Below are positions 44,023 to 48,932 of a stretch of DNA of 64,000 nucleotides, piece after piece. How positions within the stretch are numbered: the stretch's first letter is position 1; every line of letters begins with the position of its first letter. The DNA is from Neobacillus mesonae (GTDB lineage: Bacteria > Bacillota > Bacilli > Bacillales > Cytobacillaceae), in contig NZ_KV440949.1 in assembly GCF_001636315.1 (NCBI RefSeq), positions 3,714,973 through 3,778,972 of the forward strand, written 5' to 3'. Position numbers and translations under genes: made by a program. Below the pieces are notes generated by a model, which was given only the letters and a program-made list of their open reading frames with translations, made no database searches and was not told the DNA's origin.

Positions 44023-44706
44023 TTGAGACATATTTTAGTAGTCGATGATGATAAAGAAATTGTTCAGTTAATTTCGATATATTTACAAAATGAAGGGTAT
44101 AGAATTTCCAAAGCATTTAATGGCGAAGAGGCATTAGCTGCAATTGAAAAGGAAAAGATAGATTTGGTTGTTTTGGATGTTATGATGCCAAAAGTGGATG
44201 GTATGGAAGTATGCAGGATATTGCGTGAAAAGAATCATGTCCCCATATTAATGGTTAGTGCAAAATCGGAGGATATGGATAAAATAACAGGATTAATGAC
44301 CGGGGCCGATGACTATCTTACAAAACCGTTTAATCCACTGGAACTGACGGCTAGGGTTAAAACGTTGATTCGGCGTACCTACCTTTATCATGAGGAGAGA
44401 AGTGTGGAGGAGATTATTAAGATTGGCAGTCTTGAAGTCAATAAAACCTCTCATACGGTGACGGTAGACGGGCGAATGATCCCATTAACAGCTAAAGAAT
44501 TCGATATTTTGTACATCATGGTTTCCAATGTTGGAAGGGTTTTTAGCAGTGAGGAAATCTTTGAGCTGATCTGGAAGGAGAAATTTTATTCGTCCAATAA
44601 TACCGTAATGGTTCATATTAGTAATCTCCGAGAAAAGCTTGAAAAGGAAATGGGGTATAAGTTTATTAAGACGATTTGGGGAGTGGGATATAAAATCGAT
44701 GGCTAA
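44023..44706 (+). CDS. OmpR-family response regulator (VanR-like)
   Basis: Regulator of 227 residues: acidic pocket DDDKE near residue 8, D52 in VVLDVMMPKVDG, KPFNPLELTARV, and a C-terminal winged helix with LTAKEFDILYIMVSNVGRVF ending TIWGVGYKIDG. Start TTG 44023 has AGGAGG 8 bases upstream. It overlaps the kinase by eight bases and a D,D-carboxypeptidase gene follows, an arrangement known from VanRS-like systems acting on cell-wall precursors; no vanA/B ligase genes are present. Confidence 0.95.
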   Translation: MRHILVVDDDKEIVQLISIYLQNEGYRISKAFNGEEALAAIEKEKIDLVVLDVMMPKVDGMEVCRILREKNHVPILMVSAKSEDMDKITGLMTGADDYLTKPFNPLELTARVKTLIRRTYLYHEERSVEEIIKIGSLEVNKTSHTVTVDGRMIPLTAKEFDILYIMVSNVGRVFSSEEIFELIWKEKFYSSNNTVMVHISNLREKLEKEMGYKFIKTIWGVGYKIDG

Positions 44707-45793
44707 AATATCAGCTTCCATCTATGGCAGATTACTATTAGTTTTGCTTATTTGCAGCCTTATTGCAGCACCTGCTGCGGCTATATTGCTTTACGCTGTA
44801 AAAGTAATTTACATCAATGTCCCTTTGCCGCCTAATGTAAATTTCTTCATAAAGCAAACCTATGGTAACTATGGTAAATTGAATTTGTTTTTTATTGGAA
44901 TCACCATTTTAACAATAATATTTTATTCCTTATGGATGATCAAGAGAATTTCCTATTTTAGGCTTATTCGCAATTCTACTCAGCAGCTTTCTAAGGGCGA
45001 TTTTAATCTTGAAATTCCGGTCAAAGACAAAGGCCCTTTAAGCTCGATTGCACAAAATTTAAATCAAGTAAAAGGCCAGCTAGAAACTTTAATAGAAGAA
45101 GAAAAAAGGGCCATTCGGACGAAGAATGAATTGGTTACCAATGTTTCACATGACTTACGAACACCGCTTACTTCAATCATCGGGTATTTACGATTGATTG
45201 AAGAAGATCAGTACAGGGATGAAGTCGAGCTTCGCTACTATATTCATATTGCTTATGAAAAGGCATTAAGGCTAAATGGCATGGTTAATGACCTGTTTGA
45301 ATTTACGAAAATAAACAATCGTGAAGTTTCACTAAGGAAAATCGGCTTTAATCTGAATGAATTGCTTAGACAGCTTTCGGCACAGTTTCATCCTGAACTA
45401 ATAGCTGCCGGTATGGAAATCGAAATAGAAAGTACGAATGATGAGATAATGATAGAGGCAGACCCCGATAAACTTATGAGAGTTTTTGAAAACCTGATTG
45501 CCAATGCCATTAAATATGGAAAAACAGGAAAAAAGGTAGACCTCATTGTAGAGAAGCAAGGACATCATATTATGGTAAAGGTGATCAATTACGGACAGCC
45601 AATTCCTGCAAAAGCCATTCCGTTTATTTTTGAACGAATGTATCGTGTAGAGCAATCCAGATCAGATGAAACCGGGGGAACCGGGTTAGGACTTGCCATT
45701 GCTAAAGGAATTGTAGAATTACATAAGGGGTCTATTACGGTAAAAAGTAATGAAGCAGAAACTTTTTTTCAAGTACAATTACCATTAAATTAA
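44699..45793 (+). CDS. sensor histidine kinase (VanS-like)
   Basis: Kinase of 364 residues from ATG 44699. Two TM helices (about 12-36 and 62-82) bracket a short extracellular loop of only about 25 residues (VPLPPNVNFFIKQTYGNYGK), so direct sensing of a large ligand is unlikely. HAMP is about 83-135, HisKA NVSHDLRTPLTSIIGYLR with H151, ATPase motifs FENLIANAIKYG and GGTGLGLAIAKG. Probably monitors peptidoglycan stress with the regulator upstream. Confidence 0.94.
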   Translation: MAKISASIYGRLLLVLLICSLIAAPAAAILLYAVKVIYINVPLPPNVNFFIKQTYGNYGKLNLFFIGITILTIIFYSLWMIKRISYFRLIRNSTQQLSKGDFNLEIPVKDKGPLSSIAQNLNQVKGQLETLIEEEKRAIRTKNELVTNVSHDLRTPLTSIIGYLRLIEEDQYRDEVELRYYIHIAYEKALRLNGMVNDLFEFTKINNREVSLRKIGFNLNELLRQLSAQFHPELIAAGMEIEIESTNDEIMIEADPDKLMRVFENLIANAIKYGKTGKKVDLIVEKQGHHIMVKVINYGQPIPAKAIPFIFERMYRVEQSRSDETGGTGLGLAIAKGIVELHKGSITVKSNEAETFFQVQLPLN

Positions 45794-46910: not shown

Positions 46911-47060
46911 GCAAAAAAAATAGATTGGTGATGTCACCAATCAAATTATGGGAAGTTTTAAGAAATGAGTTCGAGGAACTTATTTCTTAATTAAGTTACT
47001 TATATAGTAAGGAAAAGTTGTGGAGAATTTAGGGGGAAGTTATGTGGAAATTGTGAAGAG
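46911..47060. ncRNA. structured element A, paralogue of 48295-48440 (possible minus-strand small RNA)
   Basis: About 150 bases, mostly alignable with 48295-48440 on the other side of bioB. On the minus strand it ends in a textbook terminator: arms GATTGGTGA and TCACCAATC (46923-46942) followed by TATTTTTTTT. Before it lies a 15-bp hairpin, TTAAGAAATGAGTTC and GAACTTATTTCTTAA (46958-46990, one G-T pair), a palindromic CTTAATTAAG, and conserved CCACAACTTTTCC next to a -10-like TACTAT. A minus-strand small RNA is the simplest reading; promoter strength is not convincing. Confidence 0.5.
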
Positions 47061-47120
47061 TTCAGGAGGACTTAAAAGCAGTCTATAGGATTGATTATGG
47101 TTAATTTTTCAAATAAATAG

Positions 47121-47183
47121 TTTGATTTTTAAGTTACTTGTTTTATAATTTTATATGTTAACTTAACTTTAAGTTTGGTTGAC
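47121..47183 (+). promoter_or_regulatory. bioB promoter with BirA-like operator
   Basis: TTTGAT (47121-47126) and TATAAT (47144-47149) are 17 bases apart. Just downstream TGTTAAC (47156-47162) and GGTTGAC (47177-47183) form an interrupted dyad with 14-base spacing, resembling Firmicute BirA operators (GTTAAC...GTTNAC). Biotin repression of bioB is therefore likely. Confidence 0.65.
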
Positions 47184-47205
47184 TAATATAAAATGAGGTG
47201 ATGGC

Positions 47206-48219
47206 GTGGATTGGAACAAGCTGGCGAAAAACGTGATTGAAGGCTATGAGCTGTCAAAAGAAGAAGCGAAGGAAATCTTATTTTCAAAGGATGAAGAAAT
47301 TCTTTCTCTAGTAAATGCTGCCTATGAAATTCGCAGACATTATTACGGTAAAAAGGTTAAGTTAAATTTGATAATAAATGCTAAGAGCGGGCTGTGCCCG
47401 GAAGATTGCGGCTACTGCGCCCAATCTATTAAAGCAAAAACGGAGATCGATCGCTATACCCTGATTAGCAAACAAACCATTGTCGAGGGTGCCAAGGAAG
47501 CGAAGAAGAATAAGATTGGTACATATTGTATCGTCATGAGCGGACGCAGGCCAACGAATAATGAAGTAGATACGGTCATCTCCGCGGTTGAAGAAATTAA
47601 AAACGAGGTCGACCAAATCAAAATTTGCGCTTGTATGGGGCTTGTGACAGAGGAGCAGGCGGTAAGATTGAAGACTGCAGGTGTTGACCGTTTTAATCAC
47701 AATATCAATACGAGTGCTAACCATCATACCAATATTACAACGACTCATGATTATGATGATCGCGTGAATACGATTGAGAATGTTAAAAAAGCAGGTATTT
47801 CACCATGTTCCGGTGTGATTTGCGGCATGGGTGAAACCGAAGATGATATCGTGGAAATGGCTTTTGCATTAAAAGATCTTGATGCGGATTCGATCCCGGT
47901 TAATTTCCTTCATCCAATTAAAGGGACAAAGTTGGAGGATTTGGACGATTTAACACCACTTAAATGTTTGAAAATCCTTGCCTTGTTCCGTTTTGTAAAT
48001 CCAACAAAAGAGATCCGCATTTCCGGCGGCCGAGAATTTAACTTACGCTCGCTGCAAAACCTAGGTTTGTTTATCGCCAACTCCATATTCGTCGGCGACT
48101 ACCTAACAACAGACGGCCAAGCAGCAAAAGAAGACTACCAACTCATACAAGACCTAGGCTTCGAAATCGAAGACAACCCATTCGAAGTAGAATCTCAAAG
48201 CTTCGCAACAACCCATTAA
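47206..48219 (+). CDS. bioB: biotin synthase
   Basis: Radical-SAM enzyme of 337 residues that inserts sulfur into dethiobiotin. The [4Fe-4S] motif is C64-P-E-D-C68-G-Y-C71; other family marks are [11 protein letters not shown], the cysteines of [22 protein letters not shown], and [13 protein letters not shown]. The second-cluster Arg is in [16 protein letters not shown] 47206 has GAGGTG 5 bases upstream. It stands alone with a BirA-like operator and no other bio gene nearby, flanked by two copies of the ~150-bp element. Confidence 0.96.
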
Positions 48220-48230
48220 AAACAAATCTT

Positions 48231-48320
48231 GGTGTCAGGCACCACTCGTGGACAATTGTCCACTGTGGGCGTACAGTTCCGTTGAAAGAAGGGCAAAAAA
48301 AAAGATTGGTGTCTGACACC
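48231..48320. repeat. composite GGTGTCAGGCACC repeat after bioB
   Basis: Begins GGTGTCAGGCACC (48231-48243), continues ACTC, a GTGGACAATTGTCCAC hairpin and ACAGTT, and reaches GGTGTCTGACACC (48308-48320). Same order of parts as the minus strand of 28608-28684. Its right end is shared with the terminator hairpin of element B. Confidence 0.75.
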
Positions 48321-48440
48321 AATCAAAATTATGGGAAGTCTTAAGAAATGAGCCCGTGAACTTATTTCTTAATTAAGATGCTTTTATAATAGGGAAAAGT
48401 TGTGGAGAAATTACGAAATAGTTGTGTGGAAGTTGTGTAG
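48295..48440. ncRNA. structured element B, paralogue of 46911-47060 (possible minus-strand small RNA)
   Basis: On the minus strand it terminates with arms GATTGGTGTC and GACACCAATC (48304-48324) followed by T9. The preceding hairpin TTAAGAAATGAG/CTTATTTCTTAA, the palindrome CTTAATTAAG, CCACAACTTTTCC and a -10-like TATTAT are shared with element A, as is AATTATGGGAAGT. Sequence between conserved blocks has drifted, while both hairpins are retained. Confidence 0.5.
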
Positions 48441-48467
48441 GTTTGTTAGAAGAATTATAGGAATTAC

Positions 48468-48932
48468 CTATTGAGGACAAAACCGGCTGAGAAACCTAGG
48501 AAACTGTCTTTAATAAGCCCTATTGAGGACAAACCCGGCCTAGAAACCTATGAAAATGTCTTTAATAAGGCTTCTAGAAGACAAACCCGGCCTAGAAACC
48601 TATGAAAATGTCTTTAATAAGGCTTCTAGAAGACAAAACCCGCCTAGGAACTTATGAAAATGTCTTTAATAAGGCTTCTAGAAGACAAAACCCGCCTAGG
48701 AACTTATGAAACTGTCTTTAATAAGGCTTCTAGAAGACAAAACCGGCCGAGAAACTTATGAACTGTCTTTAATAAGACCTATTGAGGACAAACCCGGCCT
48801 AGGAACTTATGAAAATGTCTTTAATAAGCTCTCTTAAGACCAAAACCAGACCAGAAACCACATAAATTTGTCTTTAACAAAACAAATGAAGGACCAAATC
48901 TAACCTCCCCCCTAAAAAATGTCTTTAATAAG
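48468..48932. repeat. 52-bp tandem repeat array, about 9 units
   Basis: GTCTTTAATAAG anchors at 48506, 48558, 48610, 48662, 48714, 48765, 48817, 48870 and 48921 give steps of 52, 52, 52, 52, 51, 52, 53, 51. A typical unit is CTTCTAGAAGACAAAACCCG, CCTAGGAACTTATGAAAA, TGTCTTTAATAAGG; AAGACA and TGTCTT are inverted within each unit. Middle units are nearly identical and outer ones diverged, as in arrays that grow from the centre. No coding capacity. Confidence 0.97.

Follow-up and report, generated by a model that had tools for sequence, protein, structure and literature searches.

Two paralogous predicted small RNA genes flanking bioB in Neobacillus mesonae, and a candidate OmpR-type regulator

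Two similar elements, A and B, flank bioB in a 64,000-nucleotide stretch of Neobacillus mesonae DNA, hereafter the window (G000:C1:3714973-3778972 in the 5.8-Mb genome). They are most likely two copies of one trans-acting small RNA gene, named here "sRNA-1", each with its own promoter. As a whole, the reading of A and B as a regulator-driven pair of small RNAs that would act on ribosome-binding sites is given a probability of about 0.7. It is supported by the conservation and structure of the elements, a promoter array and spacing shared with a candidate regulator gene, the co-occurrence of both genes, and a conserved complementarity. The features of the window that concern A and B are the following.

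47016..47059, minus strand: A, 44-bp promoter array (TCTTCACAATTTCCACATAACTTCCCCCTAAATTCTCCACAACT) of ~11-bp direct repeats, proposed response-regulator site (score 63.3 with a PWM trained on sRNA-1 promoters; alignment)
47004..47009, minus strand: A, -10-like hexamer TACTAT, 6 nt past the array (conserved spacing)
46913..46997, minus strand: A, predicted small RNA of ~85 nt (start placed 7 nt after the -10; both ends predicted)
46958..46990, minus strand: A, 5' hairpin (fold, pair counts)
46948..46956, minus strand: A, ACUUCCCAU, nearly invariant and unpaired in the predicted fold, proposed seed for pairing with mRNA (ACTTCCCAT conservation)
46913..46942, minus strand: A, intrinsic terminator, 8-bp stem and U-run (terminator scan; both-side changes in terminator pairs)
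48398..48441, minus strand: B, 44-bp promoter array with a degenerate middle repeat (PWM score 39.4)
48386..48391, minus strand: B, -10-like hexamer TATTAT (array spacing)
48295..48379, minus strand: B, predicted small RNA of ~85 nt (start predicted)
48341..48372, minus strand: B, 5' hairpin (fold)
48331..48339, minus strand: B, near-invariant ACUUCCCAU (fold, alignment)
48295..48324, minus strand: B, intrinsic terminator, 9-bp stem and U9 (terminator scan)
47206..48219, plus strand: bioB, between both RNA genes on the opposite strand, outside the system (TIGR00433, 415.4 bits, cut-off 225)

A and B are minus-strand paralogues (BLAST 84% over 148 nt, E 1.2e-36; a direct-repeat comparison gives 83% for a segment of 83 nt and 96% for one of 27 nt), and a DNA search of the whole 5.8-Mb genome returns them as the sole matches. 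An earlier note, made from the letters of the window, had described a series of blocks common to both elements, and these are indeed found in place and in order on the minus strand. The RNA length of ~150 nt that it proposed has to be shortened, since the first ~60 nt of A and of B, counted from the 5' end, are a conserved promoter block with a -10 located 6 nt past the array, which leaves a predicted RNA of ~85-92 nt. This RNA would consist, in order, of AACTTAAT, a 5' hairpin, the near-invariant ACUUCCCAU linker, and the terminator.

Structurally, the hairpin and terminator part folds far better than shuffled sequence, with z-scores of -5.96 for A and -4.34 for B, neither of which is equalled by any of 200 shuffles; for the whole 146-150-nt elements, the values are -6.56 (A, 0/200 shuffles) and -2.85 (B, 1/200). 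Both elements possess the G-C stem followed by a U-run of an intrinsic terminator, and a scan of a 1.7-kb region found four terminator-like sites against 1.4 expected, A (8 pairs) and B (9 pairs) included. Furthermore, all 94 distinct transcripts collected from related genomes form at least six of the expected pairs both before and after the linker, and 91 have a fold z below -2 (median -3.94). The linker is unpaired with a median probability of 0.88, exceeding 0.9 in just 46 of the 94 folds, and ACTTCCCAT is conserved in 112 of 118 distinct sequences (114/119 with a slightly different filter).

Within the main subgroup, 95.6% of the alignment cells can pair, the 5' hairpin reaching 93.4% and the terminator 99.5%, versus 32-54% in slid controls. 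Both-side changes are observed at three of the eight terminator pairs and at one of the 14 hairpin pairs, and covariation support therefore comes mainly from the terminator, the 5' hairpin being mostly conserved in sequence within the subgroup. Model R1 contains seven terminator pairs alone, because RNAalifold missed the 5' hairpin, at which the subgroups are not aligned. Alignment A1 holds 42 rows, namely the transcripts less than 93% alike, plus B, minus the copy L057:4961-5059, whose terminator is replaced and which was left out of alignments A1 and A2 and kept in the folding of the 94 transcripts. Seven copy occurrences (three distinct copies, including B) failed the start-motif rule and are thus absent from these 94; B was put into A1 and A2 manually, and the other two, from G035, were not.

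The promoter half is the other conserved part. With an nhmmer profile, 103 distinct long copies were obtained from the collected loci and aligned; 95 of them have no gap in the promoter half (consensus about TCTTCACAACTTCCACAYAACTTCYCTATAASTTCTACA). The array is composed of AACTTC-like repeats of 11 bp each (about AACTTCYACAY, by inspection), followed by a short spacer and TANNAT. The -10 lies exactly 6 nt past the 44-bp array in 112 of 118 distinct array-plus-linker sequences (109/119 with a slightly different filter). Neither A nor B shows a sigma-70-like -35/-10 pair in the scan of the 1.7-kb region, as would be expected of promoters whose -35 is weak. A PWM of the array was built from the 95 gapless rows, its training set being sRNA-1 promoters alone. 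A 19-base pattern of the shared motif has 114 matches genome-wide with up to three mismatches against 67 for the control, and is therefore unspecific on its own; with up to two mismatches, nine sites remain, A and B with one mismatch each and the regulator site described below among the seven with two. A repeat-pattern search of the same genome (62 matches against 61 in the control) is uninformative beyond A and B. Three of its matches, at G000:C1:2793677, 3897986, and 4085784, are identical over 25 bases (CTCTACAAAAGTTCTCAGTAAATTC) and are perhaps copies of a mobile element.

A search with model R1 recovers sRNA-1 in 63 of 193 genomes of the family, comprising 55 of the 61 Neobacillus genomes and eight genomes from four other genera. 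Seventeen of these 63 carry one copy, 41 two, three carry three, and two carry four, the second copies of G021, G029, and G048 being weak or partial. In an order-wide sample of 299 genomes, two match, both Neobacillus; the filters of the model searches were strict, and distant copies may be missed. Searched in a genome collection, the exact element pattern retrieves 41 stretches, mostly from Neobacillus or "Bacillus sp.", with one each from Pseudoneobacillus, Bacillus renqingensis, "Paenibacillus sp. BSR1-1", and a Bacillota MAG; this number is a lower bound, as 76 of the 103 aligned copies conform to the pattern. The viral collection has no match to the exact pattern.

The window has no Rfam 15 match at gathering scores, and three matches up to E 5 all lie below the gathering score. 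LhrC, which presumably has a model in Rfam, is none of these three. The earlier note had taken A and B for minus-strand small RNAs with terminators, outside any annotated class it recognised, and had named homologues at other positions as a check. The first point is backed by the 63 of 193 genomes together with the conserved structure and promoter, the second holds in that no Rfam family matches, and the homologues are those recovered with R1. The literature searched, with most subscription papers outside its scope, describes no Neobacillus sRNA; the sole paper found that contains both terms (PMC13418901) deals with FBSA degradation.

A search for complements of the linker led to the candidate regulator: its matches included the ribosome-binding site ATTATGGGGAGTGGTGAACATG of an uncharacterised OmpR-type response-regulator gene (G000:C1:1430857-1431564), ~2.3 Mb away and far outside the window, and the same array was then found upstream of this gene. 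The encoded protein harbors receiver and Trans_reg_C domains, and the kinase encoded downstream harbors HAMP, HisKA, and HATPase domains; among the 25 of 100 NCBIfam matches listed, none reached its cut-off. The promoter repeats themselves suggest a response regulator of the OmpR type. In the 200 bp upstream, the PWM scores positive at all 22 orthologous regulator genes (7.0 to 38.8), and at -31.5 or less at all eight paralogous ones. In a wider set of 52 distinct regulator loci, 51 score positive, all but G080. In a scan covering a small part of the N. mesonae genome, A, B, and this regulator alone score above -2.1; its own array, at 13.2, is among the weaker ones.

Regulator and RNA also occur together. 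Among the Neobacillus genomes, 53 have both, two have sRNA-1 alone (G006 and G047), none has the regulator alone, and six have neither. At the family level, the regulator is found in 61 of the 63 sRNA-1 genomes (E up to 1e-85) and in 30 of the 130 others. The Fisher p-values, 5e-7 for the genus and 1e-24 for the family, are not corrected for shared ancestry. In G006 (99% complete) and G047, sRNA-1 has an intact array, yet no orthologous regulator was detected. Conversely, among five regulator-bearing genomes examined in which sRNA-1 was not detected, the array is present in four and absent in G080. The regulatory link is thus supported by the array, the -10 spacing, and the co-occurrence, and the regulator protein probably controls sRNA-1. 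This probable regulator is what is new beyond the earlier note.

The array of the regulator gene faces away from it, toward a divergent small-RNA-like element termed sRNA-2. Counts for this element are based on 48 regulator loci, eight of 56 rows having been omitted (the duplicates L273-L275 and L277, as well as L280 and L283-L285). A divergent -10-like hexamer lies 6 nt past the array, as in sRNA-1, at 44 of the 48 loci, with the sequence TAAGAT at 32. A divergent terminator is found at 44, both together at 43, and a UCCC inside the transcript plus a terminator at 37. The predicted lengths range from 69 to 187 nt, with a median of 144.5, and the N. mesonae copy is predicted near G000:C1:1431680-1431768. 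G012, G022, and G028 have weak regulator arrays (7.0-8.5) and no visible sRNA-2.

In G078, G227, and G156, in which sRNA-1 was not detected, the array and -10 beside the regulator lead into a different and longer RNA-like stretch. G156 possesses two further sites of this type, three copies in all. The longer type, seen in sister genera (L327, L344, L321, L323, and L324), shares GGAAAA and a GAAAATCG...CGATTTTC part. In G161, the array is present and no RNA-like stretch was recognised; two extra array-like sites of this genome, L322 (G161:C1:3878649) and L334 (3033802), score 37.6 and 20.3 and have no obvious RNA of either type. Against Rfam 15, five sRNA-2 and sister-genus loci matched nothing but an unrelated c-di-GMP-I riboswitch (L344:275-359, 63.7 bits), ~1.2 kb from one of the G156 array sites.

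By sequence, the linker can pair with AUGGGAAGU and, if G-U pairs are allowed, also with GGG(A/G)(A/G)GU. By duplex energy, the regulator initiation sites (median -15.25 over 48 distinct sites) are the best of 14 orthologue groups, followed by those of its kinase gene (-10.6). Within N. mesonae, the regulator site ranks second of 187 initiation sites by pairing, a set which includes loci picked by a similar complementarity search; the regulator itself had first been chosen as a target by complementarity in this genome. The regulator site pairs less well in the niacini-type group, in g7, in part of g9, and in G076. Genome-wide, sites complementary to the linker are not enriched (57 versus 70 control matches). 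Among the other genes of N. mesonae, L182 (a weak FG-GAP-like match) pairs best, at -21.4, better than the regulator site; in 21 other Neobacillus genomes that possess this gene, one site reaches -17.0 and the rest fall between -7.6 and -14.6, so that L182 is not a conserved target.

The surroundings of sRNA-1 vary. Among 40 loci inspected, bioB lies between the copies at seven and a VanS-like kinase gene lies nearby at two. Tandem copies ~160 nt apart are frequent, and copies at a distance of ~160-200 nt are found without bioB. A DUF3231 gene in L061 (L061:5112-6110) and a histidine-phosphatase gene in L032 (L032:5165-5944) occupy the same position as bioB in other genomes, and it seems that genes are acquired in the gap between the copies. 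This is most simply read as an older tandem arrangement into which genes were later inserted. In a rapidly built tree of regulator genes with 51 rows, the bioB arrangement requires five changes, two of which are forced by well-supported branches; all fall within a single clade of 32 rows with a support of 85. Fourteen genomes were assigned this arrangement, eight upon inspection and six by copy spacing alone. The idea that a cassette was duplicated around bioB, or has to do with biotin, is not supported, given the tandem copies without bioB in many genomes, and a link to biotin or bioB was rejected on account of strand, position, and distribution.

Repeats of other kinds occur in the window. 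At 48476-48858, a 52-bp unit that contains internal palindromes (TTCTAGAA) is repeated 7.4 times in tandem, directly upstream of the promoter of B on its strand. The palindrome GGTGTCAGGCACC has 12 sites with at most one mismatch, versus 0.02 expected (e.g., 8311, 23812, 28608, 48231, 48308, and 63193), and a one-mismatch variant is part of the B terminator. In L057, a longer palindrome containing this motif stands in for the terminator of one copy. Elsewhere in the window, the VanR/VanS-like pair at 44023-45793 is followed, up to 46808, by a VanY-D/DacA-like D-Ala-D-Ala carboxypeptidase gene with CTTTAGGT repeats upstream; none of these genes reached the NCBIfam cut-offs listed.

Could A and B be copies of a mobile or interspersed repeat of the bcr or REP kind that merely bears a hairpin and a T-run? 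The existence of two similar copies and the palindrome variant within the B terminator would suit such an origin, but the genome of 5.8 Mb has just two DNA matches, copies in multi-copy genomes mostly lie within ~1.4 kb of each other, the parts conserved are the promoter array, the -10, and the linker, and the viral contigs lack the exact pattern; this origin is very improbable. An action on bioB in cis, as biotin-responsive leader, antisense RNA, or attenuator, is suggested by the direct flanking of this gene and is scarcely credible given that both elements are on the opposite strand, A reading away from bioB and B ending short of it, and given the loci and tandem copies without bioB described above. 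A small protein encoded by the transcript is equally hard to credit: 35 of the 94 distinct transcripts contain an ATG, but just 15 have a closed frame of at least ten codons from an ATG, GTG, or TTG start, and conservation concerns the linker and the paired arms.

It is also conceivable, though unlikely, that A and B are real small RNAs answering to another regulator, for instance the VanRS-like pair beside A or a protein that also controls the distant response-regulator gene. A shared array implies a shared regulator and leaves its identity unspecified, the VanR/VanS-like pair does lie in the window, and the two genomes with sRNA-1 in which the regulator was not found would be explained. However, the presence and absence of sRNA-1 track the distant regulator, whose promoter carries the array even in genomes without detected sRNA-1. 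The neighboring VanRS-like system was itself rejected as the regulator, a VanS-like gene being found at 2/40 inspected loci.

Under the preferred reading, that of a small RNA pair driven by the OmpR-type regulator, this regulator most likely binds the ~44-bp array upstream of the -10 and switches on A and B. The same array in front of its own gene would also serve the divergent sRNA-2, and, the array being common to all, a single signal would increase all three of them, regulator, sRNA-2, and sRNA-1, at once. ACUUCCCAU would then pair with ribosome-binding sites of the GGG(A/G)(A/G)GU type and block translation. The ribosome-binding site of the regulator itself is a likely target, and negative feedback on the regulator is a plausible second step. 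From these patterns we infer transcription, regulator binding, and pairing in the cell. A broader proposal is tentative, with the odds somewhat against it: the main output of this two-component system would be small RNA, one type of ~44-bp operator driving the regulator, the divergent RNA, and one to four more RNAs, often in tandem, which feed back on the regulator ribosome-binding site. The operator and the -10 geometry would be kept over evolution, with one RNA body replaced by another: Neobacillus and its near relatives would have the ~90-nt sRNA-1, and sister genera the longer type, present three times in G156.

If true, these RNAs would represent a Bacillaceae counterpart of the streptococcal csRNAs, of LhrC, and of OmrA/OmrB, for which regulator, operator, seed, and first target all have candidates that can be tested in soil bacteria. 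A fixed operator with a changing RNA body would be a tractable case of small-RNA regulon evolution, and the shared operator offers a means of finding further RNAs without sequence similarity, as for sRNA-2.

The csRNAs depend on CiaRH and are present as several related RNAs per genome, some in tandem, according to PMC3091779, PMC8186281, and PMC4211561; many possess an unpaired stretch between two stem-loops, complementary to the SD and AUG (PMC3091779). sRNA-1 resembles them in its multiple and sometimes tandem copies, in the (here putative) direct-repeat response-regulator site at the promoter, in the (here predicted) different RNA types under one regulator, and in the unpaired stretch between two stem-loops, complementary to the SD/AUG region, which is found in the predicted fold. 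In contrast, the CiaR site, TTTAAG-N5-TTTAAG, is absent from the sRNA-1 promoters upon inspection of the alignment, and both sequence and taxon differ. The multicopy LhrC1-5 RNAs of Listeria monocytogenes need LisRK, carry UCCC between stem-loops, and block translation, as reported in PMC4132741. They share with sRNA-1 (one to four copies in 63 genomes) the several copies, some in tandem, and a single-stranded UCCC between two stem-loops; they differ, in the same source, by three UCCC sites versus one conserved in sRNA-1, and by taxon. This source also describes RsaE, SprD, and FsrA as UCCC-motif RNAs of low-GC bacteria, the C-rich motif of which is thought to pair with ribosome-binding sites. 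sRNA-1 shares such a motif with them, in contrast with its lack of a match to any Rfam family. OmrA and OmrB of Escherichia coli are tandem RNAs of 82-88 nt under OmpR that repress ompR (PMC4211561); sRNA-1 would similarly comprise tandem RNAs of similar size under a response regulator, the feedback on the regulator gene being only predicted. Unlike sRNA-1, they are enterobacterial, with no known sequence relation. Their pairing region also lies elsewhere in the RNA. sRNA-1 is assigned to none of the csRNA, LhrC, or OmrA/OmrB families, because the CiaR site is absent and no Rfam family matches. By its architecture, it would work like these three, as a new family of a known kind.
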